From positions 1 to 25,119 of the IMG/VR virus record IMGVR_UViG_3300038619_000278: 25,119 bases of DNA; one strand, written 5' to 3'. A program made the position numbers and the translations under genes. The DNA comes from a virus. Below are positions 274 through 21,467 of the stretch, one piece after another. Below the pieces are notes generated by a model. It did not search any database. It was not told the origin of the DNA and saw only the letters and a program-made list of their open reading frames with translations. Within the stretch, counting starts at the first letter, position 1. Every line of letters begins with the position of its first letter.

Positions 274-2517
274 CTACTGGCCGGCGTTCTTCTGAAGCCC
301 GCGATAGTCGAGAGCCGCCGCGCCGAAATCCATGCGCGCCTTGATCTCGACGCCGTCCACTTCGAACCCCTGTTTGGTTTCGATGTACACGCCCTGCTGC
401 CCTTCCAGGTAGCAGTACTCCACGGTGTCGATCTGTGCCGGGTCCGCGATCAGATACCAGCCGGTGGTCCCATTCGTGGCGGCATCGAGACGCGGCTCGA
501 CCACCGGAATCAGGCTGCGCACCCACTCCGGGACGACCTTGGTCGCGTCCGCCGAAGCGATGTTGATCGGGTACACAAGCTGGAGCATGTAAGTCTCCAG
601 CGCCGTCGGCACGGCGATGAACCGCGGAATAAGGTTCAGCGGAGTGCCCTGCGGCCCCTTCTGCAGGCGCATGGCGCCGCGCCCCTTGCCCAGTGCGGTC
701 AGCGGAGCGGAGTTGGCAACGGTGGAATCGATGGCGCTGGCGACGCCGGTCAGCAGATTGGCGTGATTGGCGTGGAAGAGCGCGGTAGAGTTCTTATCGC
801 CCGCGTACACCGCCGCAGGATTCGACGTGATGATGCCCCAGACGGTATTCGATTCGAGCTGCGCGGCGGCCACGCCGAGTAGCGCCGGGACGCGGGTGAA
901 CGCCTGGAGGTCGTCGTTGATGATGACCTTGCGGGTCAGTGCCACGATCTCGCCGTAGGTGCCGAGCGCGTAGTTGATGTTGTTGTCGGTCAGGTTGGCG
1001 CGGTGGTACTCGCCCTTCTCATTCAGCGCCTGCAAGACAGGCGCATCGGCGAGCATCACCCGATTGATGGGCTTGAAATCCTGCGCCGTCACCTGTCGGC
1101 AGAAGGGCTGGAAGGTGCGAGGATAGGCTTCATAGCCCTGGCGCAAGGTCTTGTTTGCGACGTTGGCGAGGATCGCCGGGAAGTCCGCGGTGGATTCGGC
1201 GCCGCCCGCGAAGAACTCCCGTCCCCGCGAGGATCCCTGCAGTGCCATCTCCGCAATCCGCGTCACATCCATCCCGCGCGGGTTGGTACCGCGCAGTTCC
1301 AGGGCTTCCTTCGCCATATCGATGAGCTTGAAGTTGCGGTACTCGCGGGCCATCTCGACGGCGCGGCGCTGCTGTTCGGGACCGTAGCCATCGAGGTACT
1401 CCCCGGTTTCGTTGCCGTTGTGGTCCCTGCGCCGCGCCAGGAAGAACCGGCCATCCGCGCGCAGCAGCAGAGCCATCTGCATGCAGGCAAGGCGCTGCTC
1501 CATGCCGTCGCGGGTCACCGACGTGCCGCCCTCGCCGCGAATCGGGAATGCCGGGCCGTCTGCGCCGGCGCGCGGCGGGACTCCCTGCTGGCCCTTGGTC
1601 GCGAGATGGGCAAACAGTTCCTTCCGTGCCTGATCGACGGGCACGCCCTTGGCGATGAACTCGCTGATGACGGTCTCGTCGATCCCGTATTTGATTGCGG
1701 TCGCGCCCAGCGTTTGGATTTCGCTGACGCGCTCCCGTTCGGCCTGGACCGCCTCTTCCCGCGCGGCGGCCAGGGCCTGATCGTTCACAGTACGGGCATC
1801 CGCGCCCGTGTCCTGCGTGGTCGTCTGTTCCATTGCAGGTTTCTCCTTTTGTGGGCTGATTGCCCGTACTGAATCGTTGGGTTGTGCGCTCAGAAAGCAC
1901 GTGTTGAAATCGGCCGGCACCGTGCAAGGCGAAATCTCGAACGGCTCCCAGTCGGTGGCTTTGAACATGCCGATTTCTTTGTCGTTCAGGTAGGGCGGTT
2001 TGCCCTCCGGCACGCGCTCGGTCTGCGCGTCCACCTTCTCGCGTTTGTACACGAACGTTCCAAAGCTGAGGTTTTGCAGGATGCCGGTGCTGGCTTTGCG
2101 GAACATCTCGGCGCCATCCGGATCGCCCAGATCGAACTGCAATGTGGCCATGCCCTTATCGCCGTTGGGCCACGCGCGGCGCACCACGCCCAACTGGGCA
2201 CGCGTGCCTACCTTGCCCGCCATCAGGGACTTGAAATCGTCCCCGGTGAAATGGGTGTCGAACACCGGCGCGCCGTTGTTCAGCCGGTCGAAGCGGCAGC
2301 CCTGCATGTCGAGCTGAAGCATGTAGGGTTCGCCCGTCGCACGATCCACCCTCGGGACGGCGGCCCCGCTGTACCACACCACATCGATGGTGCCGTCCTT
2401 GGCGTTGGCCGTGCTCGGCAGCACCTGCGCATCGGCGGCGAAGATTTCGGCGTCAACCTGCGCGGGCGGCGGCGCGCCGGTACCCGCTGGTGATATTTCG
2501 GTTCGTAGAAGCGGCAT
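274..2517 (-). CDS. Prohead protease / scaffold / major capsid fusion protein
   Basis: This 747-residue polyprotein appears to carry three head-assembly roles. Residues 1-220 resemble the HK97/herpesvirus-fold prohead protease, with a candidate catalytic His89 (in FDTHF) and Ser151 (in QNLSFGTF) and a later ISPCTVPADF segment. Residues 229-312 are charged, Glu/Arg/Ala-rich and probably helical, as expected for a scaffold. Residues from about 430 to 747 resemble the Mu gpT-type major capsid subunit (ANVANKTLRQGYEAYP, then VIINDDLQAFTRVP). Such protease-capsid fusions are a known family. The frame is open back to 2700, but I chose ATG 2517 because an AGGAGG site lies just upstream and the upstream extension is Arg-rich and overlaps the neighbour gene. 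The protease would presumably release scaffold and capsid after prohead assembly. The catalytic residues are assigned by eye. Confidence 0.9.
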   Translation of the reverse strand: MPLLRTEISPAGTGAPPPAQVDAEIFAADAQVLPSTANAKDGTIDVVWYSGAAVPRVDRATGEPYMLQLDMQGCRFDRLNNGAPVFDTHFTGDDFKSLMAGKVGTRAQLGVVRRAWPNGDKGMATLQFDLGDPDGAEMFRKASTGILQNLSFGTFVYKREKVDAQTERVPEGKPPYLNDKEIGMFKATDWEPFEISPCTVPADFNTCFLSAQPNDSVRAISPQKEKPAMEQTTTQDTGADARTVNDQALAAAREEAVQAERERVSEIQTLGATAIKYGIDETVISEFIAKGVPVDQARKELFAHLATKGQQGVPPRAGADGPAFPIRGEGGTSVTRDGMEQRLACMQMALLLRADGRFFLARRRDHNGNETGEYLDGYGPEQQRRAVEMAREYRNFKLIDMAKEALELRGTNPRGMDVTRIAEMALQGSSRGREFFAGGAESTADFPAILANVANKTLRQGYEAYPRTFQPFCRQVTAQDFKPINRVMLADAPVLQALNEKGEYHRANLTDNNINYALGTYGEIVALTRKVIINDDLQAFTRVPALLGVAAAQLESNTVWGIITSNPAAVYAGDKNSTALFHANHANLLTGVASAIDSTVANSAPLTALGKGRGAMRLQKGPQGTPLNLIPRFIAVPTALETYMLQLVYPINIASADATKVVPEWVRSLIPVVEPRLDAATNGTTGWYLIADPAQIDTVEYCYLEGQQGVYIETKQGFEVDGVEIKARMDFGAAALDYRGLQKNAGQ
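1831..1850 (-). promoter_or_regulatory. Internal ribosome site and ATG inside the protease-capsid gene
   Basis: An in-frame ATG (codon 229, base 1833) is preceded by AAAAGGAG with a 9-base spacer, as good as the sites used by neighbouring genes. It lies exactly at the join between the protease region and the helical scaffold-like region. Initiation here would make a protease-free scaffold-capsid product of 519 residues, recalling the nested I/Z protease and scaffold genes of phage Mu. The AAG GAG bases also encode Lys-Glu, so coding chance is possible. Confidence 0.5.
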
Positions 2518-2525
2518 CGTGCCTC

Positions 2526-3014
2526 CTAATCCTTCACCGCGCTGACGGCGATGTAGTCGTTTTCTCCCAGCTTCTTCAACTGGTAGAGTTGCTTCTGCAG
2601 CCACGCGACGTGGCCCTTGAACTTGTCGTCGCCCTCGCGATGCCACTTCACCAGGTGCTGGTAGAAATGGAAGTTCGACATGTCGCCGGCGTCGTAGCAC
2701 TGTTTGCAGAGATCGCTGAACCGCGCGATGGCAGCCTGCTCAGCCGCGAACGCATCGTTCAGAATCTCGGTGACGCTATCGTGGGTCGCGGCGGGTTTCA
2801 GCTCAATCGTGGGCGCGCCTTCGAGGAACAGCACGCGGCTCACCAGAGACTTCATGTGATCCTCGCACTGCTCCTTCATCTGCTTCAGGCCATCGGCCAG
2901 ATCCAGGCCCAGGCGCTTCACGTCGCGCTGGTCGAGAAGATACTGAAGCATCATGGAGCCCTCAATGTTGGCGGCCTCCTGAAGCCCAGCGATTACCTGT
3001 GGGTTCCCTTTCAT
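2526..3014 (-). CDS. Bacterioferritin-like four-helix protein in the head operon
   Basis: This 162-residue protein aligns by eye over nearly its whole length with bacterioferritin (E. coli Bfr has 158 residues): an MKG start, Glu18, Tyr25, the RVLFLEG segment ending helix B, Glu92, and a GHVAWLQ segment near the C terminus. Bacterioferritins store iron and oxidise Fe(II) at a di-iron site. Here the site looks altered. Bfr Glu18, His54, Glu94 and His130 have equivalents (Glu18, His53, Glu92, His135), but Bfr Glu51 aligns with Cys50, Glu127 with Phe132, and the haem ligand Met52 with Glu51. Haem binding is therefore unlikely and ferroxidase activity doubtful. The open frame extends to 3380, but ATG 3014 has an AAAGGA site and begins the recognisable fold. 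It lies between portal and capsid genes, which is unusual. A structural or capsid role is inference. Confidence 0.8.
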   Translation of the reverse strand: MKGNPQVIAGLQEAANIEGSMMLQYLLDQRDVKRLGLDLADGLKQMKEQCEDHMKSLVSRVLFLEGAPTIELKPAATHDSVTEILNDAFAAEQAAIARFSDLCKQCYDAGDMSNFHFYQHLVKWHREGDDKFKGHVAWLQKQLYQLKKLGENDYIAVSAVKD

Positions 3015-3039: not shown

Positions 3040-4728
3040 TTAGCCGCGATAGAGCCGTGGCGCCGATTCGAAACCGCTGCCCGCGCGCGACATGCCAGTG
3101 ACGAGTAGGTCCTTGACCATTCCCAGGTCCTCTTCCGAGAGCGCCGTGAAACCCTGGCTCTTGGACTTGGTGGGCGCCGCTTTGCTACTCGGAGTTCGCT
3201 CTTCCGTTGCCGCCGGCTGCTCCTGGCCGCGGAGCGTCGTGTTGCGAGGGTCCGAGTCCAGGATGATTTCGAATTTGTCCACCAGCTTGTTAAACAGTGC
3301 AATCTGCTGAAGCTGGGTGGGAGGGTCGTAACCATTCTCCAGCACGGCCTCGAACCAGGTCTTGCGGCCCATGCGGACATCTTTCAATACGCCCTCTGCG
3401 TCCTTCACCGGATCGACCGATTCGAAGCGCGGCGCGGTCCACTGCACACTGCGCAGTCCGATCTTCGGGTCGGTGGCGGCGGCTTTCGGAATCTTGCCCT
3501 GCAGAATCAGCGTGTCGATGAACCGCCGCCACACAGGCATCGCGAACAACGGGATCAGGGTGAGCCAACGGAAAGCCTCCACCGTGTTGCGGAAGCCGAG
3601 CATCCCGCCGCGCCAGGAGGAGTAATTCACTTGCGACATGTCGCCCGTGCCGAGCTCGTAAGGCAGGCCAATGCCGGCCATGATCCCCTGCAACTCGGTC
3701 ATCTTGTATTCGCGGTAGCCGCCCGCCGCCGGCGGATTGTTGAACTTGATGTCCTGGCCGGGCTTCAGATACTCAACCATGCCCGGCTGGAAGCTTTCGA
3801 CCGGCAGCCCACTGGATGGATCGGTCCCTGCGATGCCGAGTGGATCTCCATCGACGCCTTCCGGTTGTTGAACGAACGCCGTAACACAGGCTTCCACCTT
3901 CTTGCGCACGCGCTCCGCATCGCAGTAATCGTCGAGGTCCCGGAGCGCCATCATCACGGGCGCGAGCCACGGCACGCCGCGAACCTGGCCAGGCCGGAGC
4001 ACGCGGTAAACGTGCATGATCTGGTCGGCCGGAACCGGCTGGCTCACAATGCCGCCGCGAGGGTTGAGGATCAGCACGCCGCCGGGGTGATAGCTGAACA
4101 GCCAGTAGGCGACGCGGCGCCCCATCTCGTCGAACTGCACGCCCTCCATCACATGGCCGTTGACCAGCCCCATGGTGCGGGCCTGATCGAGGAAATCGGC
4201 TTCGAGCATTTGAAGCTGAAGCGGAATACGCAGACCGGCGTCCGCAGGTCGCGGCCGGAAACGGACAATGGCTTCTCCCGATTCCGCCATGGTGCGGACG
4301 GTCAGCGTCTGCATGCCATAGAAATCGAGGCGTTGCGGCGTGTCACAGCCGTCGGCGAAGAACGGCCACTCGGCGTCGATGATCTTGTCGATGGCCGTAT
4401 TACCGGTCTTGGCTTGGGGCACGATCCCGGTCCCAACCACATTTCCAGCCAGTTCCTCTACCGCGCGCGCCGCATACGGATTGTTGCGGATCAGATCGCG
4501 GCTGCGGTTGCGCAGCCAGATGAGCGACCCCATCAGCTCGACGTTGGCGTCCGTCGAGGCGGCGTACCAGCCGTTTGCGCGGCGGCCAGCGGTAGCGCCT
4601 TCATACCGGAACCGCTGCGCGTGGCGCTCCAGATAGCCCGTGGTCAGTTCGAGCGCCACACGACTTCGCACACGCTGCAACGCAACGCGCGGCGCCACAA
4701 TGCTGATGGCCTTGTCGAGAAGGTTCAT
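3040..4728 (-). CDS. Phage portal protein (lambda gpB family)
   Basis: This 562-residue protein would form the dodecameric ring at one capsid vertex through which DNA is packaged and to which the tail is joined. Typical lambda-family portal segments are seen: WLRNRSRDLIRNNPYAARAV near residues 70-90, the following GNVVGTGI, then an FRPRPADAGLRIPLQLQMLE stretch, and a middle region containing SQVNYSSWRGGMLGFRN, which matches the conserved NYSS portal motif. The C terminus is Ser/Lys/Ala-rich and probably flexible. The frame is open to 4869, but that extension is Arg-rich and overlaps the gpW-like gene in another frame. ATG 4728 follows the gpW-like stop codon by 4 bases, pointing to coupled translation, although its ribosome site is weak. 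Gene order from terminase through gpW to portal is as in lambda. Confidence 0.93.
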   Translation of the reverse strand: MNLLDKAISIVAPRVALQRVRSRVALELTTGYLERHAQRFRYEGATAGRRANGWYAASTDANVELMGSLIWLRNRSRDLIRNNPYAARAVEELAGNVVGTGIVPQAKTGNTAIDKIIDAEWPFFADGCDTPQRLDFYGMQTLTVRTMAESGEAIVRFRPRPADAGLRIPLQLQMLEADFLDQARTMGLVNGHVMEGVQFDEMGRRVAYWLFSYHPGGVLILNPRGGIVSQPVPADQIMHVYRVLRPGQVRGVPWLAPVMMALRDLDDYCDAERVRKKVEACVTAFVQQPEGVDGDPLGIAGTDPSSGLPVESFQPGMVEYLKPGQDIKFNNPPAAGGYREYKMTELQGIMAGIGLPYELGTGDMSQVNYSSWRGGMLGFRNTVEAFRWLTLIPLFAMPVWRRFIDTLILQGKIPKAAATDPKIGLRSVQWTAPRFESVDPVKDAEGVLKDVRMGRKTWFEAVLENGYDPPTQLQQIALFNKLVDKFEIILDSDPRNTTLRGQEQPAATEERTPSSKAAPTKSKSQGFTALSEEDLGMVKDLLVTGMSRAGSGFESAPRLYRG

Positions 4729-4732
4729 TTCG

Positions 4733-4987
4733 TTACCAGCGGTCGTCCAGCGTCGGGCCCGTGGGACCATCGCCGCGCTGGTGTTGCGCGAACCGGACGC
4801 GGCTCCCGGTCTGCCCGCTGGCCTGCCGGATGTCCTCTTCGATCTCGGCCTTCGCCTTGCGCAAATCATCCACCGAGCGGTACGTCACCTCGCGCCCATC
4901 CGGGAACCGCACTTTCAACGTGGGATTCCCGAGCGCCTGGTTGACGGCATCCAGGTTCGATTGCAACTGCTGAATTGTCAGAGCCAT
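4733..4987 (-). CDS. gpW-like head-tail joining protein
   Basis: This 84-residue protein resembles lambda gpW (68 residues), a small head-completion protein that binds below the portal and is needed for tail attachment. The visible signature is a short helix at the start, a beta hairpin with KVRFPDGREVTYRSVDDL, then a charged helix RKAKAEIEEDIRQ. The tail of about 25 residues is Gly/Arg/Thr-rich and probably disordered. It starts one base after the large terminase stop codon and ends 4 bases before the portal start, exactly the lambda position between A and B. The start ribosome site is weak, so translation is probably coupled to the terminase gene. Confidence 0.85.
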   Translation of the reverse strand: MALTIQQLQSNLDAVNQALGNPTLKVRFPDGREVTYRSVDDLRKAKAEIEEDIRQASGQTGSRVRFAQHQRGDGPTGPTLDDRW

Positions 4988-4988
4988 A

Positions 4989-6884
4989 TCAATTTCGCCC
5001 GAACCAGTTGCGGCGCGGTATCCATGGGTCGTCCCCGCGCTCAGTGGGAGGTGGGGCGGGGCGGTCGGCGTTGGCCGATTTCGTCACGGCAGGAATTGCC
5101 GGTGGCGTCTCCCCCCGCCTCGTCTGAACCATCCTTGCGAAGCGGTCACAATGAACCGGGAGTTTCAGGCCGCTCGCGTACAGCGCGTGCAGCGCCGCGT
5201 ACGCGAGGACCCGGGCGTCCAAGCCCTCGTTGCGGGCATTGGCGGGCTTCCGCCATTCCTGTTTCGGAAAGCCGTTGTGGTACCGCGTGAACTTTCTCTC
5301 GGCGGTCAACTGCTCGAAGTACTCGATGTCCCGCCCGATCGGGAAGTGGCAATAGCCCGGCCCCACATCCCGGAGCTTCAGGCGGTCGTAGATCGCCGTC
5401 TTCGCCGCATCCACGCCGATCATAAAGAACGGCGTCTGGTTCTTCCGGCTCGGCTTGCGCGGCCAGATCGGCGACTCGCCCGCGCGCCCCTTGGTGGCGT
5501 AGACACGCCGGTTGTAGCGGTCGCGCGTGAAATGCAGCACGGTGGCATCCTTGAACCCGCAGTCGATGCACGTCGCGACGATCCGCATCGGCAGCCCGGA
5601 TGCGTGCAGGTACTCGGAGAGCAGCAGGCCCTCCAAGTGCTCCCAGACCTCGTTGCGCGTAACATCGCCGGGGATCACGTGATAGGCAATCGACCACGAC
5701 TCCTCATCTCGTCCCCATCCGGCGATCTCCATCTCCAACCGGTCGGCCTGCACGTCGACACCTGCCGTGATCAGCGCCACCCCGTCCGGCGCCTCGGCTT
5801 CGAACGGCTCGCAGCGGTTCCACAACGCGTGGGCGTCCGTCGCTACTTCGTGGGTCTCCTCCCACAGCTCAGCGAGCACCGTGTTCAGAAATGCTTTTAG
5901 TGTCTCCGGCGACTTCTTGGCAGCCAGGAACTCCACAGCGATCTCTCCCCAGGATTTCTTTGGCGAAATCAACTGCGAGACTCGAAATCCTGGAATCGGC
6001 GAGGACGGGTTCGCCGCGCGGTACTCGCCGCGCTCCACCATTTCAGCCTTGAGGCGGTGAGGAATTAGCTCGCGGCACTCGGCGCAACGATACGCAGCGT
6101 CTTCGGGTTTCCCTTCCGGCCACACCACGCCCGGCCCCGTACCATCGCCGAACGTGAGCACCTGGAAGCACCCGCACTGCGGGCAGGGCACGAAGTAATC
6201 GCGCTGGTCGCTCTCCCGCCACGCCAACTCGATGCGGCTGACGCCTTTGATCGTCGGCGTGGACGCCATCACGATCTTCTTGTTGTGAGCGAACTCCGCG
6301 GTGCGCTGGATCGCCAGCGATACCGGGTCGCCCTCCGTGCCCGCGCTCGCCGGGTAACGGTCCACCTCATCGAGCAGTGCGTACCGGATCGGCCGCATGG
6401 CCAGTCCCGAGGGCGAGATCGCCCCGGTCAGCGTGATCTGCCCTGCGCCATTTGCCAGAACTTTGTGCAGCGTCGTGTTGCTCGAATCGCGAGACTTGAC
6501 GGGCGCGATCTTCCCACGGAGTGCCGGCGTCGCGCGGAACATGGGCGCTACGCGGTCCTTCGAGAGCGCCTTGGCATCCTCCGTGCGCGGCTCGACTACC
6601 AGCACTGGCCCCGGATCCACATCGGCGATGAAGCCGATGAAATTGAGGAGCACTTCCGTCTTGAGGATCTGGGCTCCCGATAGCACGACCACCTGACGGC
6701 AGGGATGGCTGGGGCTGAGCACATCCATCGGCTCTCGCTGGTATGGCCGCGTGCGCCACTGGCCTCGCTCGGCCGCCGCGCCACCGGTCAGAACGCGGTT
6801 CTCATCCGCCCACTGCGAAACGGTAATGTCGCGCGGCGGCAGCATCGCCGCGGCGCCAACCTCATGGATGGAGAACGGCTGCAT
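4989..6884 (-). CDS. Terminase large subunit (GpA family)
   Basis: This 631-residue ATP-driven DNA packaging motor and nuclease is of the lambda GpA family (lambda gpA has 641 residues). A Walker A-like SGAQILKT lies at residues 69-76, a Walker B YALLDEVDRYP around 168-178, and an ATPase coupling-type segment VMASTPT near 205-211. A family-typical Cys-rich insert has CPQC at 234-237 and CAEC at 267-270, probably binding zinc. The nuclease half begins with the ITAGVDVQ segment, whose Asp377 is the likely first metal ligand. The C terminus is Pro/Arg-rich. It follows the small-subunit gene by one base and precedes the gpW-like gene by one base, so all are probably translated from one message. 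GpA-type terminases usually make cohesive ends, but the cos site is not identified here. Confidence 0.95.
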   Translation of the reverse strand: MQPFSIHEVGAAAMLPPRDITVSQWADENRVLTGGAAAERGQWRTRPYQREPMDVLSPSHPCRQVVVLSGAQILKTEVLLNFIGFIADVDPGPVLVVEPRTEDAKALSKDRVAPMFRATPALRGKIAPVKSRDSSNTTLHKVLANGAGQITLTGAISPSGLAMRPIRYALLDEVDRYPASAGTEGDPVSLAIQRTAEFAHNKKIVMASTPTIKGVSRIELAWRESDQRDYFVPCPQCGCFQVLTFGDGTGPGVVWPEGKPEDAAYRCAECRELIPHRLKAEMVERGEYRAANPSSPIPGFRVSQLISPKKSWGEIAVEFLAAKKSPETLKAFLNTVLAELWEETHEVATDAHALWNRCEPFEAEAPDGVALITAGVDVQADRLEMEIAGWGRDEESWSIAYHVIPGDVTRNEVWEHLEGLLLSEYLHASGLPMRIVATCIDCGFKDATVLHFTRDRYNRRVYATKGRAGESPIWPRKPSRKNQTPFFMIGVDAAKTAIYDRLKLRDVGPGYCHFPIGRDIEYFEQLTAERKFTRYHNGFPKQEWRKPANARNEGLDARVLAYAALHALYASGLKLPVHCDRFARMVQTRRGETPPAIPAVTKSANADRPAPPPTERGDDPWIPRRNWFGRN

Positions 6885-6885
6885 G

Positions 6886-7422
6886 TTACAAACCCGCGTC
6901 CGCGATGGCTTTGCTCACCTTGCGCAGCACGGCCTCGTCATCGTTTTTCAGTAGCCGATGGATGGCTTTCTCGTCGTTGACGGCGGCCAGCATGGGCGCC
7001 AAACGGTCGGCACGCGCCTGGAGGTGGTCTTTCACGATGGCCGAGAAACTCGCGGCATACTCCGACGCGCGCACCGCCTGGATCAGCTTGCCGGCGCGCT
7101 CCTCGTATTCCAACTGCGCCGTGCGCGCCTCGAAGCTCGTTTTGACCGCTCGGGCGCGCAGGTATTGAGCAACCGGATCGCCCGTTGCGGCTGGCGGTTC
7201 GGGCATCGGGGAAACGCGTTCCTTCGGTGCTGCGGCCGCCGTTCGATTGACCGTCTGGCCGGCGAAGGTGTTCTTGGCCCATTCCTGGTTGGCGCGCTCC
7301 GGATCGATGCTGCCGTCAGGCAGCGTCGTGATGCGCTTGCTGGCGATGGCTTTCTGAACGGCAGGCAGGCTGCACCCGCGCATCCGCGCGTAGGCCCGAA
7401 GAGAAATGCCCATCATCGCCAT
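6886..7422 (-). CDS. Probable terminase small subunit (DNA recognition)
   Basis: This 178-residue protein lies directly before the large terminase, where the small subunit that recognises phage DNA is expected. Its first 50 residues look like the MerR/Nu1-type winged helix of lambda terminase small subunits (SLRAYARMRGCSLPAVQKAI, then a basic wing with KRITTLPDG). A Pro/Ala-rich linker follows at residues 60-85, then long charged helices that could form the oligomerisation domain. ATG 7422 is the first of three closely spaced ATGs (7422, 7416, 7413), and none has a strong ribosome site, so the exact start is uncertain by three residues. This gene is the first of the leftward packaging operon and is divergent from the plus-strand cassette. 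Identity rests mainly on position plus the helix-turn-helix look. Confidence 0.75.
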   Translation of the reverse strand: MAMMGISLRAYARMRGCSLPAVQKAIASKRITTLPDGSIDPERANQEWAKNTFAGQTVNRTAAAAPKERVSPMPEPPAATGDPVAQYLRARAVKTSFEARTAQLEYEERAGKLIQAVRASEYAASFSAIVKDHLQARADRLAPMLAAVNDEKAIHRLLKNDDEAVLRKVSKAIADAGL

Positions 7423-7495: not shown

Positions 7496-7750
7496 ATGTG
7501 TTCGATGCCACGCACCACCAAGACCACCAAACAAACCACCGCCGCCTGCTACGCCGAACGCCACACCGAGTGCCAGGACCTGCTGAAGCGCATCGCCAGC
7601 CGCCTGGAGCAACACCAGAAGGACCAAAGTCAGGAACCCGCCAACTGGGGGTACGCTGGCGACCTCGGCCGCGTCACCGAAGAACTGGCCTACGTCCTCG
7701 CCAGCTTGGGCGACCGCAGCGCGGTGGACCGGAAAGGACTGGAGTACTGA
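7496..7750 (+). CDS. Small protein of unknown function, first gene of plus-strand cassette
   Basis: I do not recognise this 84-residue protein. It begins with a Thr/Lys-rich stretch (MPRTTKTTKQTT), followed by charged, probably helical sequence (ECQDLLKRIASRLEQHQ, then GRVTEELAYVLASLG) and two Cys residues near the N terminus. No signal peptide or membrane segment is seen. Two ATGs are possible, at 7496 and 7505. The ribosome site is weak for both, so the first is given. The stop codon is 2 bases before the next start, so the three plus-strand genes form one operon. It reads opposite to all the surrounding phage genes. Confidence 0.65.
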   Translation: MCSMPRTTKTTKQTTAACYAERHTECQDLLKRIASRLEQHQKDQSQEPANWGYAGDLGRVTEELAYVLASLGDRSAVDRKGLEY

Positions 7751-7752
7751 CC

Positions 7753-8262
7753 ATGCAGAAACACAACGTACAAATCGGCACGACCTACATCGTGAAGGTC
7801 AGCGGCACGCTGGCCAAGGTTCGCCTCACCCGCGAACACCCACGCGGCGGATGGTACGGCACCAACCTCGCCACCGGCCGCGAGATCCGCATCCGCACAG
7901 CCGCCCGCCTCCGCTCGGAAGTGAAGCCTGCTGGAGAAGAGCGCATCGAGAAAACCCGCAACCCGCGCTTGCCGGACTTCAGCGCCGACGAACTGCGCCG
8001 CGTTGTGGAACGGGCCAAGGCCGAGATCCTCGCGGACGTCGCCGCCGGGACTGTCCCCGGCACTTGCGCCTCCTTCAGCGAACTGCACGACCACACGGAC
8101 GCCAACGGCTACGGCGGGGCGTTTGAGCGTCCCTTCGACAACAACGAGACGGACTTCTGGAACGCTGTCCAGGATGCCGTCGACGCATGGATCAAGCAAG
8201 GAGGCTTGAAACGCCTCACTGACGAAGAGGCGCGCCGCATCGCCGACGAGATCGAATTCTGA
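7753..8262 (+). CDS. Unknown protein with small beta domain and acidic C terminus
   Basis: I do not recognise this 169-residue cytoplasmic protein. Residues 1-55 read like a small beta-barrel (VQIGTTYIVKVSGTLAKVRL, then GGWYGTNLATGREIRI), of the sort seen in small nucleic-acid or ligand-binding folds. The remainder is charged and helical with acidic patches (FERPFDNNETDFWNAVQDAV, then DEEARRIADEIEF at the end). ATG 7753 has a GGAG site 9 bases upstream. The frame remains open to 7468, but that extension overlaps the previous gene and lacks its codon character. It sits between two cassette genes with only short gaps, so it is co-transcribed. Confidence 0.7.
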   Translation: MQKHNVQIGTTYIVKVSGTLAKVRLTREHPRGGWYGTNLATGREIRIRTAARLRSEVKPAGEERIEKTRNPRLPDFSADELRRVVERAKAEILADVAAGTVPGTCASFSELHDHTDANGYGGAFERPFDNNETDFWNAVQDAVDAWIKQGGLKRLTDEEARRIADEIEF

Positions 8263-9277: not shown

Positions 9278-9442
9278 CTACTTCGTCGTTGCAGGCTGCT
9301 GCTTCGGCGGGCACTTGTGGCCCGTCTTCGCAAGGCATCCGATCTGGTGACCCACCTTCTTCACGCCATGCACGGTCTTCTGTGCTCCGATTACGACCAG
9401 AGCGACCGCCATCGCGGCCACTATGATTCCAGGGGTTGGCAT
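9278..9442 (-). CDS. 54-residue membrane protein of unknown function
   Basis: This short gene begins inside the 3' end of the methyltransferase gene (22-base overlap) with an AGGAGG site 4 bases before ATG 9442. Residues 5-20 (GIIVAAMAVALVVIGA) form a likely membrane helix. The remainder is basic, with Lys/His residues and two Cys (KKVGHQIGCLAKTGHKC, ending in Pro/Gln/Thr). The charge distribution predicts an outside or periplasmic N terminus and a cytoplasmic basic tail. Together with the single-span protein at 8858-9118 it makes a pair of tiny membrane genes downstream of the modification genes. I cannot assign a function; the pairing is suggestive of a lysis or membrane-associated role but not proof. 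Confidence 0.55.
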   Translation of the reverse strand: MPTPGIIVAAMAVALVVIGAQKTVHGVKKVGHQIGCLAKTGHKCPPKQQPATTK

Positions 9443-10752
9443 CGATCCTCCTCGTTTGACTTACGCGTGTCCGCGAATGCGCGTCCGTTCTCTGCGTGCC
9501 GCGCCTGCTTCCCGGCGAACTCCTGCCACCTGGTCACGATCACGTCGCAGTACTTCGGGTCCAACTCAATCACGCGCGCCTGGCGGCCGGACTTTTCGCA
9601 AGCGATCAACGTCGTGCCAGAGCCGCCGAACGGATCGAGCACGGTATCGCGGCCCTTGCTGCTGTTCCTGATGGCGCGCTCCACCAGTTCCACAGGCTTC
9701 ATCGTCGGGTGCAGATCGTTCACCGAAGGCTTCTTGATGAACCACACGTCGCCCTGATCGCGGGCGCCGCACCAGAAATGATCCGTGCCTTCCTTCCATC
9801 CATAGAGGATCGGTTCATACTGGCGCTGGTAATCGGAACGCCCCATCGTGAAAGTGTTCTTCGCCCACACGATGAAGGTGGACCAGTGCCCACCCGCCTC
9901 ACGGAACACCCGCTGCAGCGTGTGGATCTCCGACGACGACATGCAGATGTAGATCGCGCCCTTGGTCACCGCCAACAGGTTCGTGCAGGAGTCCCGCAGG
10001 AACTGCTCGAAGTCATCGCCCAGATTGTCGTTGGCGATCTTGCGATTCTTCTTGCGGAGCTTGTCCTTCATCGTCGCGCCGTAATTCACGTTGTATGGCG
10101 GATCGGTGAAGACCATGTCGGCAAGGCCACCGGCGAGCACCTTCTCCACGGATTCCAGCTGCGTGCTGTCGCCGCAGAGCAGGCGGTGCTCACCCAGTAT
10201 CCAGACATCGCCAGGGACCGTGATTGCACTCTCCGGCGTCTCCGGGACCGCATCGTCGTCCGTGTTCCCGGCGCGAGCCTCTTCCGGTTCCTGGAGCAGT
10301 GCTTCAATTTCCTCATCGCTGAAGCCGACAATGTCCAGATTGAAGCCGTCTACCTGGAGCGACTCCAACTCGACCCGCAGCATCTCCTCGTCCCAGCCGG
10401 CATTCATCGCCAGACGATTGTCTGCGATGACCAGCGCGCGCCGCTGTGTTTCGGAGAGGTGATCGAGGACGATTACCGGGATTTCGGTCATCCCGAGTTT
10501 CCGGGCGGCAAGCAGGCGCGCGTGACCCGCGATGATCACTCCGTCCGCGCCGACCAGGATTGGATTCGTCCACCCGAACTCGACGATGCTGGCGGCGACC
10601 TGCGCAACCTGCTCCTCCGTATGCGTCCTCGCATTGCGGATGTAGGGAATCAGGCGGTCGACCTGCCAGCGCTCCACGAGAAGATCGCGCAAGACACGCT
10701 CGGGTGTCACGGAACTGTACTGACTCGTGGTCGTATCTTGCGCGGTCTTCAT
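9421..10752 (-). CDS. ParB-domain DNA amino-methyltransferase (DPPY type)
   Basis: This 443-residue protein has two domains. Residues 25-150 form a ParB/Srx-like N-terminal domain (NARTHTEEQVAQVAASI, then ADGVIIAGHARLLAARKLG, and IVLDHLSETQRRALVIADNR). The C-terminal part is a beta-class S-adenosylmethionine methyltransferase with catalytic DPPY at 217-220 and the cofactor loop DPFGGSGTT around 373-381. DPPY enzymes methylate adenine N6 or, less often, cytosine N4. The recognised DNA sequence cannot be read from the gene. No nuclease partner is present, so this is an orphan enzyme, probably protecting phage DNA or marking it for regulation. The gene lies 12 bases after the 60-residue gene, with no clear ribosome site before ATG 10752. 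The same domain design recurs in the enzyme at 11661-13163. Confidence 0.92.
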   Translation of the reverse strand: MKTAQDTTTSQYSSVTPERVLRDLLVERWQVDRLIPYIRNARTHTEEQVAQVAASIVEFGWTNPILVGADGVIIAGHARLLAARKLGMTEIPVIVLDHLSETQRRALVIADNRLAMNAGWDEEMLRVELESLQVDGFNLDIVGFSDEEIEALLQEPEEARAGNTDDDAVPETPESAITVPGDVWILGEHRLLCGDSTQLESVEKVLAGGLADMVFTDPPYNVNYGATMKDKLRKKNRKIANDNLGDDFEQFLRDSCTNLLAVTKGAIYICMSSSEIHTLQRVFREAGGHWSTFIVWAKNTFTMGRSDYQRQYEPILYGWKEGTDHFWCGARDQGDVWFIKKPSVNDLHPTMKPVELVERAIRNSSKGRDTVLDPFGGSGTTLIACEKSGRQARVIELDPKYCDVIVTRWQEFAGKQARHAENGRAFADTRKSNEEDRCQPLES

Positions 10753-10764
10753 GTGGATGGGGAG

Positions 10765-10947
10765 TTACGCGGTCTTGGCGAGGTGGGCGCCGAGAGCCGA
10801 CGCCACGGCCTGCTGGTGAGTCGCCGGAGTCTGGCCGGCGGTGAAAGCGGCTTCGATGGCCTGGACGAGCGCCACCACCTCCTGCGTCAACTGAATGCCG
10901 GAGGGAGCCACGCTGAGAATCGTTTGAATGATCTGCAAAAAGTTCAT
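10765..10947 (-). CDS. 60-residue hydrophobic protein of unknown function
   Basis: This short protein starts MNFLQIIQTILSVAPSGIQL and continues with Val/Ala-rich helices (EVVALVQAIEAAF) and a C-terminal AVASALGAHLAKTA. It is hydrophobic enough to be membrane-bound but has no classic long membrane span, so an amphipathic helix pair is equally possible. ATG 10947 is supported by a GAAAGGAC ribosome site, and the open frame upstream to 11535 crosses the neighbouring gene in another frame. It is encoded just before the DPPY methyltransferase on the same message. I recognise no family. Confidence 0.6.
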   Translation of the reverse strand: MNFLQIIQTILSVAPSGIQLTQEVVALVQAIEAAFTAGQTPATHQQAVASALGAHLAKTA

Positions 10948-11028
10948 CGTCTTGTCCTTTCTGGTCCACACGAAAAGGCCCTTGGAGGCGGCCACGGAGC
11001 CGAAGCATCCGCAGCCGCCCCCGGTAGG

Positions 11029-11049
11029 GATCTCCCGTATGGGGAGATC
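11029..11049. other. Hairpin at the end of the Ala-rich gene
   Basis: There is a perfect 8-base inverted repeat, GATCTCCC (11029-11036) and GGGAGATC (11042-11049), with a 5-base loop. It immediately follows the stop codon of the Ala-rich gene on the minus strand. No T run follows in either direction, so it could be an RNA processing or stability hairpin rather than a full terminator. Confidence 0.4.
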
Positions 11050-11564
11050 TACGCGGCCTTGGGCTGCGTCTGGGAAGGGGTCGACGCCCCTCCGGAAGCG
11101 GTCACTACCACCGGCACCAGGGCCGCGATGGTCTGCGAGATGGCGGCGGCCAAGGCACTTGCGATCACCGGCGTCAGCGACGTGAACAGGTTCGCGACGT
11201 TGGCGGTGACAGCCTCGGCGCTCACCGCTTCGCCAGCTCCGGCGGCGGCGACGGCGCCCTTGGTCGTCTCGCTGGCGGCGGTGCCGGCGGGCGATACGGT
11301 CTGCTGGCCCTCGGTCGTGCCCACCTGGCCGGACAACACGATGCCGGCGTTGATGGCGTGATCGATCGTGGCGGCGTTCTGCGCGCGCCGGCTGGCGGTC
11401 TGCGCCAGATCCAGCGATACCGCTTCCCAGGCGCGCTGACGCGCCAGAGTTTCGCGCCGGTTGTCCAGCTCTTCGTCGAAGAGCAGCTTGATGTTTTCGG
11501 CGCCGCCCAGCAAGCTCGGCTGGTGGGTGACGCACGGGGAGAGATTGGGATTGGTTTCGGCCAT
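11049..11564 (-). CDS. Ala/Thr-rich protein of unknown function
   Basis: I do not recognise this 171-residue protein. Its N-terminal half is charged and helical (NIKLLFDEELDNRRETLARQ, then WEAVSLDLAQTASRRAQNAA). The C-terminal half is a very Ala/Val/Thr-rich stretch (residues 95-160, including LTPVIASALAAAISQTIAAL) that could be an amphipathic or membrane-inserting helix. The end is Ser/Thr/Pro/Gln-rich. A GAAAGGAC site lies 12 bases before ATG 11564, a little far. It stands between the two methyltransferase genes with about 100-base gaps on each side. A structural or membrane-active role is possible but nothing in the sequence decides it. Confidence 0.6.
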   Translation of the reverse strand: MAETNPNLSPCVTHQPSLLGGAENIKLLFDEELDNRRETLARQRAWEAVSLDLAQTASRRAQNAATIDHAINAGIVLSGQVGTTEGQQTVSPAGTAASETTKGAVAAAGAGEAVSAEAVTANVANLFTSLTPVIASALAAAISQTIAALVPVVVTASGGASTPSQTQPKAA

Positions 11565-11606
11565 ACGGGAATAGTCCTTTCGGTTGGAGTTGCGGTTAGG
11601 GTCATG

Positions 11607-11633
11607 CAGCCCGGAACGCCGGGCCGCTGTTTT
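11607..11633 (+). terminator. Terminator-like hairpin reading rightward
   Basis: The arms GCCCGG (11609-11614) and CCGGGC (11619-11624) with an AACG loop are extended by CAG/CTG around a two-base bulge and followed by TTTT on the plus strand. The polarity is opposite to the genes here, so it could stop antisense transcription. On the minus strand there is no T run. Weak evidence only. Confidence 0.3.
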
Positions 11634-11660
11634 GGGTGCTGCAAACTTGTTGAGAACGGT

Positions 11661-13163
11661 TCAAGGCCTGTCGGCGGGCTCGCCGCGCGACTCTGCGACC
11701 GCAGCGAATGTTTCTTTCGTTGCCGCGAGCATCGCTGTATCACCGGTCAGGTTCATGATCCGGCGCAGGATCACGTCGCAGTAGGCGGGGCTGATCTCAC
11801 AGCCGTATCCCTTACGCCCAAGCACATGGGCCGCAGCCATCGTTGTGCCGGACCCCATGAACGGATCGAACACCGCATCGCCGGCATCGCTGAACGCCAG
11901 CAGGAAAAACTCCACGAGCGGGCGCGGGAACGGGGCTGAATGCGATCCCTGACCGGACTCCGTGCGGACTTCGATGACGTTGGACAGCCGCGCGATGCCC
12001 GCGTGGCGCCCTTCCGAATCATCGGACAGGCTGTTCCGGCTCCGTTGCCACGCGCTCTGGTTCTTGCCGCCGTCGGCGGCTGCGCCGCGCGGCCCCGTGC
12101 CCAGCAATCCGCTACCGGAAGTCGACTTCGGGTTGTTTGGGTTGTAGTCGAAGCAATCCTCAGAGTCGTGCCCAACCGCGTTGGGCCGGAATTTGATCCG
12201 GGCCTCCGGCGCCGTGAAGTGAAAAATTGGTTCAAACGCGTTCTTGAAGCGGTTCCCCCAACCGCCGGGCACACCGTTGTCGGTTTTGCGCCAGCAGAAT
12301 TCGTCGATGAACCACCAGCCCCACTGCCGGACATGGGCAATCACCAGATCCTTGACGTACAGGCTGCGCTGCCCGCCTTCGGCGTGCTCTTTGATGTTGA
12401 GAAAGAAAGAACCATCGGGAGCCAGCACGGCCGCGATGTTCGCGGCTACATCGCGGAACCAGGCAACGTACTCATCCGGCCGGACGGGCTTGAAGCCGCT
12501 GGATGGGTCATACTCGCGCTGGGTCGCATAGGGCGGCGACGTAATCACCACGTTCGCACTCACGCCCTCGAACAACTGCGCCAAGACGCTGTAATCGCGG
12601 CAGTCGCCGCAGATCAAACGATGCTTGCCCAGCAGCCAGATATCTCCGGGCCGCGTCACCGGCTCGACCGGCGCCTCGGGGATCTTCTCTTCCACCTCGT
12701 GAGCAGCCGAAGCCGCAGTCTCAGGTTCCATCTCGGCCAACAGCGTACGGAGTTCGTCGTCGCCGAAGCCCAGCATCGCAAGGTCGACGTCGGCAGCCTT
12801 CAGATCCGCCAACTCGCCCCGGAGGATCTCGTCATCCCATCCGGCTTGCTCGGCGCTCTTGTTGTCGCAGAGGATGTAAGCTCGTTTCTGGGTCTCGCTG
12901 AGGTGGTCCAGGATCACCACCGGGACGCGCTCCAGCCCCAACTTCCGCGCCGCGAGCAGCCGCCCATGACCGGCGAGGATGCCAGCGCTGGTGTCCACCA
13001 GGATTGGATTCAGGAATCCGAACTCGGCGATGCTGGCGGCGATCTTCGCCACCTGCGCGTTGGAGTGAGTCCGGCCGTTGCGCTGGTACGGCGCCAGGCG
13101 CTCCACCGGCCAGATCTCGATGCGTTGCGCCATGATGGGCGTGATAGAAATGGGTCCGCTCAT
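11661..13163 (-). CDS. ParB-domain DNA amino-methyltransferase (SPPY type)
   Basis: This 500-residue protein has the same layout as the enzyme at 9421-10752. A ParB-like domain occupies about residues 12-135 (RNGRTHSNAQVAKIAASI, then GILAGHGRLLAARKLG and VILDHLSETQKRAYILCDNK). The beta-class methyltransferase has catalytic SPPY at 209-212 and cofactor loop DPFMGSGTT near 433-441. SPPY is typical of cytosine-N4 enzymes, whereas DPPY in the paralogue favours adenine N6, so the two probably make different marks. A middle segment at residues 340-400, rich in Gly/Ser/Arg, may be part of target recognition. ATG 13163 shares an ATGA overlap with the stop of the upstream cytosine methyltransferase, which fixes the start and indicates coupled translation. 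No restriction enzyme is seen. Confidence 0.92.
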   Translation of the reverse strand: MSGPISITPIMAQRIEIWPVERLAPYQRNGRTHSNAQVAKIAASIAEFGFLNPILVDTSAGILAGHGRLLAARKLGLERVPVVILDHLSETQKRAYILCDNKSAEQAGWDDEILRGELADLKAADVDLAMLGFGDDELRTLLAEMEPETAASAAHEVEEKIPEAPVEPVTRPGDIWLLGKHRLICGDCRDYSVLAQLFEGVSANVVITSPPYATQREYDPSSGFKPVRPDEYVAWFRDVAANIAAVLAPDGSFFLNIKEHAEGGQRSLYVKDLVIAHVRQWGWWFIDEFCWRKTDNGVPGGWGNRFKNAFEPIFHFTAPEARIKFRPNAVGHDSEDCFDYNPNNPKSTSGSGLLGTGPRGAAADGGKNQSAWQRSRNSLSDDSEGRHAGIARLSNVIEVRTESGQGSHSAPFPRPLVEFFLLAFSDAGDAVFDPFMGSGTTMAAAHVLGRKGYGCEISPAYCDVILRRIMNLTGDTAMLAATKETFAAVAESRGEPADRP

Positions 13164-14569
13164 CGAGGTGCGCCTGTGGGATTTCCGCAGTTGATGATCT
13201 GACCGGACGGCGAAGCAAAGCCATCCACCACCTGAATACGCTGCCCGATCCAACGCATGACTGGGACCGCCATCGAATTCCCGATCGCCTTGTAGCGCGG
13301 ACCGTCCGGCGTTGCGCCCAGGCGGCGCACCTCATTTAGAGGGATGCCGAGGTAAGCAGCCATCCCGTCGATCTCATCCGCGCGCAGCTTCCGGCGGTAG
13401 TTCGGGATGAGCGTGTAATTGTCGGGCAGGCCCTGGAGCCTTTCACACTCGCGGGCCGTGAGCCTCCTGACTGCAACCCACGTGGCCCGTGGCGGTGCGC
13501 CCTCGCGCGCAGCGAAACCGTCCTGCCCAAGTCCCCGGAAAGCCACCGCGAGTTGGCCGCCGGCATTCGGATGCGACTCCCGGTGGCCCATCGCGCGCAT
13601 GGTCGGCGCCACGTCTTCCATCGCGTCCGCGCCGGAGTCCTTGCACGAGAATCCCACCGGCAGGATCGGCACGCCGCGTCCGGTGCCATCCTCACTGGCA
13701 TCCATCGCTTCGCCCCGGAGCGTGTGCGCGACCAGCAACTTGCACGTATCCACGCTCGTGCCGGGGAACCGGTCGCCACCAGTGCGGTTCGCGCCGGCCA
13801 GTAGCGGAGGCGCAACCTCGACACAGAACGTCTCTGTCTCGAAGTCCATGCGCATGCTGCCGCCGCGCGCATTGCACGCCGTTGCCACGTCGATCGGCCC
13901 CGAAGTGTTGTTGCCTCCGAACGGGATCAGGTGGCCGGCCTGGGCCTGATTGTCATCCGCGCCACATGTTCCAACGCCATCCGCAGTAAGGGCGGCAACG
14001 CCCGGGTGCGCTTTGCGGCGCGCCGGAGTATCCCGGCACAGGCCTTCGCGCTCAAAAAGTACCGCTGCGGCACGTCGCCAGTCTCCAAGATGTCCGACAA
14101 CGAAGACGCGACGGCGTCGCTGGGGCACGCCGAAGAACTGAGCGTCCAGAACTCGCCAGGCGCAACCATACCCGAGTTCAGCCAGCGCCCGGAGGATGGC
14201 TCCAAAGTCCCGTCCACGGTTCGAGGACAAAACACCGGGGACGTTTTCCCAAACAACCCAACGGGGCCGCAGGCGGCCAGCCAGCCGGCAAAATTCAAGG
14301 GCCAGGTAGCCACGCGGGTCATCCAGGCCGCCTCGTCTTCCAGCGCAGGAGAAGGACGGGCAGGGAGTCCCACCGGCCAGAATGTCAATTGGACCGGCGT
14401 CGCTGGATATCGCGGTAAAGTCGCCATGGTTCTGAACGTCCGGGTAATGGTGCTTCAGCAGCGCGGAGCAAAACGGATCGATCTCTGCAAACCACGCTGG
14501 CCGGAAGCCCAGCGGCGCCCACGCCACGGTCACCGCCTCGATTCCCGAACACACGCTGCCGTAGATCAT
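13160..14569 (-). CDS. DNA (cytosine-5) methyltransferase
   Basis: This 469-residue enzyme would transfer a methyl group to cytosine C5. Motifs are in standard order: I (GSVCSGIEA, residues 4-12), IV with catalytic Cys70 (GGTPCPSFS), VI (ENVPG, 108-112), VIII (QRRRRVF), and X near the C terminus (AIGNSMAVPV). Between VIII and IX lies a long phage-type variable region (about 180-370), richer in Gly/Asp/Thr than the core, containing the target recognition part. ATG 14569 is chosen because motif I begins at once; a TTG at 14596 is an alternative with a GGTGG just upstream. The stop overlaps the next methyltransferase start by 4 bases. It is the first gene of the methyltransferase operon. The target sequence is unknown. 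Confidence 0.93.
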   Translation of the reverse strand: MIYGSVCSGIEAVTVAWAPLGFRPAWFAEIDPFCSALLKHHYPDVQNHGDFTAISSDAGPIDILAGGTPCPSFSCAGRRGGLDDPRGYLALEFCRLAGRLRPRWVVWENVPGVLSSNRGRDFGAILRALAELGYGCAWRVLDAQFFGVPQRRRRVFVVGHLGDWRRAAAVLFEREGLCRDTPARRKAHPGVAALTADGVGTCGADDNQAQAGHLIPFGGNNTSGPIDVATACNARGGSMRMDFETETFCVEVAPPLLAGANRTGGDRFPGTSVDTCKLLVAHTLRGEAMDASEDGTGRGVPILPVGFSCKDSGADAMEDVAPTMRAMGHRESHPNAGGQLAVAFRGLGQDGFAAREGAPPRATWVAVRRLTARECERLQGLPDNYTLIPNYRRKLRADEIDGMAAYLGIPLNEVRRLGATPDGPRYKAIGNSMAVPVMRWIGQRIQVVDGFASPSGQIINCGNPTGAPR

Positions 14570-14643
14570 GAATTTGTAGCGGCGAGGCCGCGACAACCAC
14601 CGAACGTGCTACCCATGCTGAAGAACCAGAGACTTGCGGGGGG

Positions 14644-20900: not shown

Positions 20901-21467
20901 GCGCGCCGTGCTGGGCCCCGCGTTGTCGGCATAGCCGATCTTGAGCCGGCCGATTGTCTCTTCGCCGATCCCGTACTTCGTCCGGAACCAGGAGAAAACT
21001 TCCGGATTGCCCGCGAGCCGCTCGTGGTAGAGGTCCGCCAGCGCAACTAACGCCTCCCGGACACGGAGCGTGAGCCGGTGGGCTTCCTCCGCCTGTTCTG
21101 TGCTGTCCGCAACGGCCTTCGCCAGGGGCGGCAACCGAACGCGCGCCGCCAGAAAATCCCGCGCCTGGCGATGCGAATCGGGCATGGGGCCCGCCTGCCC
21201 CCGCGTGACGGCGCCGTACCGCACGAACTCCACCAACTGCAGCACGTCGCCGCCGACGCCGCACGCGTGGCAGTACCATCCCTGCTTGTCGAGCCAGACG
21301 TGAAGCGACCGGTGCGATTGGCTGCGGTGATTCGGGCAATCGCAGAAGAGTGTCTGACGCGATTCCTGGGCGATGCGGCCGCCCAACAGCTCGCGTGCGA
21401 TCTCTCCGATGTCGACGTCGGTGACCTGCCGGTAATAGGCGTGGACGTCCACCGGCGGTGGCGTCAC
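17928..21467 (-). CDS. Multidomain primase-helicase (CHC2 zinc finger, TOPRIM, P-loop ATPase)
   Basis: This 1179-residue protein would prime DNA synthesis and unwind DNA. A CHC2-type zinc finger has Cys44, His47, Cys66 and Cys69 (CPNH, then CHACGVGGD). A primase core follows, with a TOPRIM-type EGVTD at about 296-300 and YICQDNEVSAAG farther on. A linker leads to a C-terminal ATPase with Walker A APTMGSGKGLL (Lys756) and likely Walker B IVLLDNAND near 810. The last 140 residues are disordered with WGP, GDL, KVP and LGT repeats encoded by the GGGGAC-core array. GTG 21467 shares a GTGA overlap with the RecD2 stop. The fusion of primase and helicase recalls P4 alpha and similar proteins. The helicase superfamily is not certain. 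Confidence 0.88.
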   Translation of the reverse strand: MTPPPVDVHAYYRQVTDVDIGEIARELLGGRIAQESRQTLFCDCPNHRSQSHRSLHVWLDKQGWYCHACGVGGDVLQLVEFVRYGAVTRGQAGPMPDSHRQARDFLAARVRLPPLAKAVADSTEQAEEAHRLTLRVREALVALADLYHERLAGNPEVFSWFRTKYGIGEETIGRLKIGYADNAGPSTARSLMEGPGAFTPRELTATSAFRPTAQDGVVPFFDNRIVFPYWSRGHVVFMIGRRTPWTPDVEWEKSKYKKLAVRNDRDHRPVAPCIRNDVLYNEDAFLTRSERVIITEGVTDCISLMEHGFPAVSPVTVQIREADWERLLPKLAGVKTVYICQDNEVSAAGLNGALRTARALAARGILTRVAALPLGEKQQRARQELKDRFGVDAAVGPREMTKLLDGRAAEDIERAEALLADAKIDVNEFFAAGKTAPDFEAILTAAETPLEMAIAKLDSCTPDDHLESLLDPILQEIGHMGPIERERHLRLIQSRCGKSKLPVSVLRQQMKVVVLDRNTRRKRTRGGTDGATPGSGPSSTSTFPRIQINDRQLREIVADAWLAVHGANQDGGRIYPHTPFLYHRAGRLVRLVIGEFGPEIEEMDEDAVFGLLARTADWHRALEDADIETSPPRDAARDMLAYPDLHLPRLEGVISTPVFGRHGELIMTDGYHRDDRLWLTPDPNLQLGTIPDVPTAENIAAARTLLIDELLVDFPFVDDSDRAHAIAAVFLPFIRRMIDGPTPMHLIEAPTMGSGKGLLANLISIAATGAACEARTLPESEDEIRKMLTAELMKGRPIVLLDNANDRKQLHSSSLASVLTSIRWTDRKLGESIMASVPNHAVWLMTGNNPNLHLELTRRCIRVRIDPRVDRPWKRSVFKHPEITTWAKENRSALVGAIVTLIRAWMVAGKPLDRARLGSFERWSSVIGAILGVAGIPGFLANLDQLYEAADIEGQAWREFTAAWWQTFRGEPKKVSELNQFCEDRELMLRLRGDGSARSQQTRLGSALGSYRDRSFDGLRIMRAGAASKHKGVAMYSLEKADESASWGPWGPSGDLGGKGPHESSANDSGDCGLFGDLGDLEGVPPRVETDFSQCPEGAQRDTRAHVCVEGGDNVPKVPKVPISSASDCSESADGLGTSDGKVPTTSPAASEVPKTPNRARVDLADFRERPMPPDGKRS
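18004..18330. repeat. Array of 13 GGGGAC-core repeats in both directions
   Basis: The unit is GGGGACCTT, 9 bases, sometimes GGGGACGTT or GGGGACCTC. Direct copies start at 18006, 18025, 18036, 18102, 18111, 18120 and 18284; reverse copies (AAGGTCCCC or GAGGTCCCC) start at 18052, 18225, 18234, 18300, 18311 and 18320. Copies at 18102-18128, 18225-18242 and 18311-18328 are in tandem. The array lies within the 3' end of the primase-helicase gene, where the frame reads the unit differently (WGP, GDL, KGP, KVP, LGT). Clustered inverted and direct repeats in a replication gene resemble origin iterons, as in lambda O. Function is inferred. Confidence 0.85.
18144..18163. other. Hairpin within the repeat array
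   Basis: ACACACG (18144-18150) and CGTGTGT (18157-18163) flank a 6-base loop in the middle of the GGGGAC array, between the direct and reverse groups. It is an alternating purine-pyrimidine tract, so it could also adopt unusual DNA structure. It may be part of an origin, or simply reflect codon choice in the disordered tail (encoding RAHVCVE). Confidence 0.4.

Follow-up and report, generated by a model that had tools for sequence, protein, structure and literature searches.

A bacterioferritin-like protein with changed metal-site residues, encoded between the portal and capsid genes of a phage lineage

We report here that a derivative of bacterioferritin (Bfr), which is not a member of the functional Bfr, is fixed in the head operon of a lineage of uncultivated phages. 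The window, by which we mean the whole stretch of DNA analysed, comprises 25,119 bases (positions 1-25,119 of the IMG/VR virus record IMGVR_UViG_3300038619_000278). In the explanation that we prefer, and whose prospects we judge to be evenly balanced, a single capture brought in a Bfr, which then became an accessory protein made together with the head; it would combine the Bfr fold with a changed metal pocket and be without the usual ferroxidase and haem chemistry. This explanation is supported by the fixed place of the gene in the operon, a ratio of nonsynonymous to synonymous substitution (dN/dS) like that of the capsid, the Bfr fold, the changed ligands, the conservation of His120, His125 and Gly128, and the confinement of the gene to one clade.

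The gene, its predicted fold and its place in the operon

Based on an open reading frame (ORF) call on the window, the bounds of the Bfr-like gene are exact (Table 1). On the minus strand, the order of genes is terminase small subunit, terminase large subunit, gpW-like adaptor, portal, Bfr-like gene, and protease/major capsid fusion, and the location between portal and capsid genes given in the original prediction is thus confirmed. Translation of the Bfr-like gene and of the protease-capsid gene is probably coupled, because the TAG stop of the former overlaps the ribosome-binding sequence of the latter. Elsewhere on the minus strand of the window, three DNA methyltransferase genes are clustered at 9421-14596 (two fusions of a ParB N-terminal domain with an N6/N4 methylase, and one C5-cytosine methylase), and a RecD2-type helicase adjoins an ERCC4-domain nuclease at 21464-24102.

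Table 1. Features of the window in and around the Bfr-like gene (codon counts refer to the 64 distinct family sequences)
Feature	Position	Strand	Basis or conservation
Bfr-like gene, 162 aa, subject of this report	2526..3014	-	ORF; PF00210 and TIGR00754 profiles; AlphaFold2; structural alignment
Portal protein, lambda type, upstream neighbour	3040..4728	-	PF05136, E=1e-104
Head maturation protease/major capsid fusion, downstream neighbour	274..2517	-	PHROG 4523, E=6e-166; PF25209
gpW-like head-tail adaptor	4733..4987	-	PHROG 2545
Terminase large subunit (GpA)	4989..6884	-	Profile matches
Terminase small subunit	6886..7422	-	Profile match
Bfr-like TAG stop overlapping Shine-Dalgarno-like TAGGAGG of protease-capsid gene	2518..2528	-	Sequence; 8-base gap
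Glu18 codon, Bfr E18 (Fe1 ligand)	2961..2963	-	Kept in 62/64
Cys50 codon, at bridging E51 position	2865..2867	-	Cys in 60/64
Glu51 codon, at haem Met52 position	2862..2864	-	Variable in family, never Met (64 sequences)
His53 codon, Bfr H54	2856..2858	-	57/64; Tyr/Phe/Ala/Asp in divergent members
Glu92 codon, Bfr E94	2739..2741	-	63/64
His125 codon, most likely at bridging E127 position	2640..2642	-	Invariant, 64/64; register from model and alignments
7-codon insertion GDDKFKG, residues 128-134, modelled loop breaking helix D at ferroxidase site	2613..2633	-	Model, alignments
His135 codon, Bfr H130	2610..2612	-	63/64

The Bfr fold of this head-operon protein is well supported by profile searches and structure prediction. 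The protein matched PF00210 with 45.4 bits (E=9.9e-12), which passes the Pfam gathering score of 24.5, and matched TIGR00754 (bfr) over residues 1-158 with E=3e-11 and 43.7 bits, which is below the NCBIfam equivalog cut-off of 125.55 bits. In a profile search, bacterioferritins of the PDB matched across its full length. An AlphaFold2 model computed from 28 family members reached a pLDDT of 91.6 and contains the complete five-helix Bfr fold, with helices predicted at residues 5-34, 42-65, 81-108, 112-127 (D1), 135-149 (D2) and 151-158. The best structural match of this model was Brucella Bfr 8sqr (Z 21.7, rmsd 1.6 A, 155 residues), and among the matches listed by Foldseek the TM-scores by query length were 0.80-0.87. 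The model of a divergent family member (L156; pLDDT 95.8) gave Z 24.5 and an rmsd of 1.2 over 154 residues. Helix E, which lines the four-fold pore in Bfr, is retained in both models, and the presence of this C-terminal fifth helix (151-158) separates the protein from Dps, a four-helix subunit without a fifth helix. The strong full-length fold match noted in the original prediction was thus borne out, as structure prediction and comparison with Bfr yielded a ferritin-type bundle with a fifth helix, and chance similarity to Bfr is ruled out by the Pfam, profile and structure results. We found no C-terminal targeting extension: only four of the 162 residues lie beyond the end of helix E (residue 158), with no excess over Bfr. 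The pI of 5.5 differs modestly from that of a host Bfr (4.9), and overall there was no sign of a basic DNA-binding protein.

The family comprises 64 distinct sequences including that of the window, collected as 83 loci from two scans of viral contigs, together with divergent members from a portal-based scan. In all 79 of the loci (L002-L084) at which both neighbours are present, portal, Bfr-like and protease-capsid genes follow one another in this order on one strand, with median gaps of 32 and 13 bases; at the remaining four loci one neighbour is missing because the contig ends there. The cultivated relatives identified by portal (Rhodobacter RcHotPocket, Bordetella PY223 and Synechococcus MinM1) have the portal gene followed directly by the capsid gene, and the Bfr-like gene is therefore an insertion. 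A stray or contaminating host gene is excluded, as dozens of independent contigs have the gene at this one place in the operon and the phage copies form a clade apart from 33 host Bfrs. At two loci, about 0.8-1.3 kb of extra DNA between the portal and Bfr-like genes (L043:4750-6000 and L081:5235-6000) appears to result from insertions at the junction and carries ORFs on the minus strand (239 aa in L043, 113-123 aa in L081). A tiny membrane-like ORF with the pattern M[ML]DFWxTYKPIIxA...TGLLVWxDPTLL is located behind the portal gene of some related phages, whether or not they carry the Bfr-like gene (L082, about 5870-5975; L138, about 7690-7800).

No PHROGs family matched the Bfr-like protein (best E 0.04), and 50,697 records of isolated phages contained no head-operon relative at the sensitivity used. 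The Bfr-like matches in the latter were records annotated or recognisable as bacterial bfr; those inspected were unverified records with a canonical Bfr surrounded by bacterial-looking genes. Three unverified 'phage' records among these (MT835709.1, MT837148.1 and OQ572407.1) carry a canonical bacterial Bfr amid bacterial-looking ORFs and are likely mislabelled bacterial DNA. In BFVD there were weak fold matches only (E 0.004 or worse), some of them named prohead protease or Dps. Those named prohead protease come from uncultured Caudovirales phages (A0A6J7WIS1, A0A6J7XDU5 and A0A6J7WPK9), appear alongside several matches named Dps, and may be another instance in which ferritin-like domains occur close to head proteases. 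Our search of the open-licence literature returned no earlier description of a head-operon Bfr, only viral bfr auxiliary genes and a ferritin-like protein from a tail region.

Metal and haem sites

In the ferroxidase site of Bfr, Fe1 is bound by E18 and H54 and Fe2 by E94 and H130, E51 and E127 bridge both, and Met52 is the haem ligand (PMC13136788). The four terminal ligand positions are occupied by E18, H53, E92 and H135 in the window protein. The six-ligand set (E18, E51, H54, E94, E127, H130) is incomplete: Cys50 takes the place of E51, as judged against host and Escherichia coli Bfr, and according to the register of the model His125 takes that of E127. The same comparison confirmed that the haem Met is replaced, with Glu51 at the Met52 position. 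By comparison, 35 full-length acidobacterial Bfrs keep E18, E51, M52, H54, E94, E127 and H130, with E127S as the one exception, and both E51 and M52 are absent from all phage proteins. Newly conserved across the family are His120 and His125 (each 64/64) and Gly128 (62/64).

The assignment of His125 depends on the reading of helix D, which in the AlphaFold2 model is split by the loop of residues 128-134 into D1 (112-127) and D2 (135-149). Matching helix 112-127 to Bfr 114-129, in an N-terminal register, places His125 at position 127 and His135 at position 130. Based on secondary structure and sequence register, His125 is thus most likely at the E127 position, with an ambiguity of one residue because of the conserved KWH motif. 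The original prediction had aligned two ligand positions to Cys50 and Phe132. Cys50 stands, but Phe132 as the replacement of E127 is an alignment artefact that arose because the gap was placed N-terminal to the modelled insertion, as our automatic alignment did likewise; the position of the modelled loop favours His125. The altered ligand set of the original prediction is upheld in outline. In L156, a divergent member, a single extra residue stands at the site of the loop (KWHEDDH), and helix D is continuous. The most divergent members have lost further ligands: E18 is replaced by Leu in L146, E94 by Cys in L159, in which H130 is missing, and E51 by Ala and H54 by Tyr in L156.

Because the positions of E51 and E127 are changed and divergent members lose more, a canonical carboxylate-bridged di-iron centre is improbable in the phage protein. 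Haem binding through Met52 is not possible. In the main subfamily, it is possible that one or two transition metals are bound via the E/C/H/E/H/H set. Cys50 and His125 still look like metal ligands, and a site that is changed fits the subfamily of the window better than one that is lost.

Distribution, host and selection

A portal tree with 69 rows places every phage that has the gene inside one clade of 40 (28 with and 12 without it), and no row outside this clade has it. Presence and absence on the tree require five gains or losses, and the simplest reading of this distribution is one ancient capture followed by several losses. The phage proteins form one group against 33 host Bfrs with support of 100/100, in a tree in which long branches part both groups, so that it speaks to the unity of the phage set and not to its root.

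A close relative of the window phage (L144:3990-4250) has a near-complete in-frame deletion of the Bfr-like gene, in which its first codons (MNPQVIAG) are joined to the N-terminal part of the protease; this deletion is known from a single 4.5-kb contig and may stem from assembly or from a defective phage. Absence in sister clades and the deletion in L144 indicate that the gene is dispensable or accessory.

A scan of genome contigs yielded two relevant loci and two ordinary host Bfrs. One locus is a close relative on a small contig of a Bryobacterales bin (L085). The other (L086) is a decayed copy surrounded by chromosomal genes on a 59-kb contig of Acidobacteria, with acetate kinase-like, aldehyde dehydrogenase-like and UDP-glucose dehydrogenase-like ORFs recognised by eye as neighbours. 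Based on these two loci, the host of the phages likely belongs to the Acidobacteriota, probably soil Acidobacteria. The host genomes examined carry a canonical Bfr, and identity of the phage protein to the host Bfrs returned by the search for relatives was only about 28-29%.

The Bfr-like protein is under strong purifying selection, with a constraint like that of the capsid. Median pairwise dN/dS against the window was 0.079 for the Bfr-like gene, 0.051 for portal, 0.069 for capsid, 0.13 for protease and 0.15 for gpW. At short range, constraint on the Bfr-like protein is thus like that on core head proteins, and at long range it diverges more.

The survey of phage head operons, with the same gene in order at 79/79 loci, leaves no room for the stray host gene that had been considered beforehand. 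The reuse in connection with the head that had been proposed is well supported by this order, the capsid-like constraint and ligands unlike those of hosts. However, the gene is repeatedly missing from sister phages and is deleted in frame in L144, which argues against an essential structural part.

Possible roles and comparison with known systems

According to the explanation that we prefer, an ancestor of the phage lineage, probably on Acidobacteria, would have captured a Bfr gene once, and this gene would have inserted between the portal and protease-capsid genes. Its product would be an accessory protein co-expressed with the head, probably working for the particle or its assembly and not in ordinary iron storage. 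It may assemble as a dimer or cage and would probably be associated with the procapsid or head, either within it or on its surface. In the changed E/C/H/E/H/H pocket a transition metal could be bound, either to stabilise the protein or to sequester the metal, and the pocket would not run the di-iron ferroxidase and haem cycle. Several observations count against this explanation. The lack of the gene in several sister clades and the L144 deletion suggest that heads can be built without the protein, a moron using late expression could have the same operon position, and the decay of ligands in divergent members (L146, L159) is hard to reconcile with a single metal function conserved in the whole family.

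The protein could instead act inside the cell late in infection as the product of an auxiliary metabolic gene, binding or oxidising iron and thereby limiting Fenton damage to phage DNA, or retaining iron, with the head operon serving merely for expression. Dispensability fits such an accessory gene, the main subfamily keeps E18, H53, E92 and H135 and could use Cys50 and His125 in place of the other ligands, and a virus-encoded bfr under purifying selection has been reported in another virus (PMC10904782). We nevertheless consider this handling of iron or peroxide unlikely, if the least so of the alternatives, since the phage protein has lost both bridging carboxylates and the haem Met to other residues although hosts have a canonical Bfr of their own, the ferroxidase site decays further in divergent members, and a metabolic gene would not usually be found so invariably between portal and capsid. 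Interference with host ferritin, in which the phage subunit would co-assemble with host Bfr and poison or open the cage, for example releasing iron, has precedents in mixed Bfr cages with ferroxidase-free subunits (PMC13136788; Shewanella hetero-Bfr, PMC12120770) and agrees with the canonical Bfr of the host genomes and the retained helix E of the four-fold pore. The low identity to host Bfrs and the lack of an evident reason for keeping the gene between portal and capsid make it improbable in our view.

We give equally little credence to an iron-bearing head, in which the protein would be packaged in or on the HK97-fold shell, as in the 'Ferrojan' hypothesis or as encapsulin-like cargo, so that iron helps entry or protects DNA. 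The gene is immediately upstream of one for an HK97-type shell, like a cargo-shell gene pair, and the same hypothesis was reported for a ferritin-like virion protein of Vi01-like phages, but was unsupported in the tonB/feoB mutant hosts tested (PMC10892097). The changed ferroxidase and haem sites and the lack of a targeting extension past helix E also speak against it.

Encapsulins share the HK97 fold with phage capsids and often carry ferritin-like cargo. A further reading, that phage heads of this lineage contain or display a repurposed Bfr holding metal at a new Glu/Cys/His site, as a viral counterpart of the encapsulin-ferritin pairing, seems to us rather doubtful. If true, a genuine phage shell would have acquired a partner from the ferritin family. 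With a Bfr derivative lodged next to an HK97-type capsid gene, selected much as the capsid is and systematically altered at its metal site, the lineage offers a natural setting in which to ask how shells and ferritins come to be paired, and whether metals are carried or managed by phage particles. For genes annotated as bacterioferritin in viral contigs, ligands and gene context should be checked before they are read as iron-storage auxiliary genes.

In comparison with Bfr (TIGR00754, PF00210; Brucella 8sqr, E. coli 1bcf), the phage protein shares the full-length five-helix fold including helix E and equivalents of E18, H54, E94 and H130, at 23-30% identity. It differs in the lack of haem Met52, in the replacement of E51 by Cys and, most likely, of E127 by His, in a 7-residue loop that splits helix D and is conserved in the main subfamily, in its location in a phage head operon, and in a score far under the equivalog cut-off. 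Hetero-Bfr subunits (Acinetobacter baumannii 9bts, Shewanella SoBfr2) likewise combine the Bfr fold with a degenerate or less active ferroxidase site; the A. baumannii subunit without a ferroxidase centre has H18, Q51, V94 and Y130 (PMC13136788). Unlike the phage protein, which is without the haem Met, these subunits keep haem binding and act in mixed cellular cages. A virus-borne Bfr under purifying selection is also known as an auxiliary gene (PMC10904782), but that bfr was described as coming from cells and encoding a functional Bfr that oxidises Fe2+, and not as a head-operon gene. The window protein lacks the intact ligand set expected of a virus-encoded functional bfr. Vi01-like phage gp217 is another predicted ferritin-like phage protein and was itself seen in the virion proteome; its gene lies beside a tail completion gene in a different phage group, and the prediction is from Phyre2 only (PMC10892097). 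In encapsulin-ferritin pairs, as here (8 bases upstream in the window; 79/79 loci), a ferritin-family gene adjoins the gene of an HK97-fold shell. A C-terminal targeting extension marks the FLP-TP class of encapsulated ferritins and is absent from other classes; no targeting peptide is visible in the phage protein, which is a Bfr-type five-helix subunit in contrast to the short EncFtn subunit, and the shell beside which it is encoded is that of a full phage, which also has a terminase, a portal and a protease.
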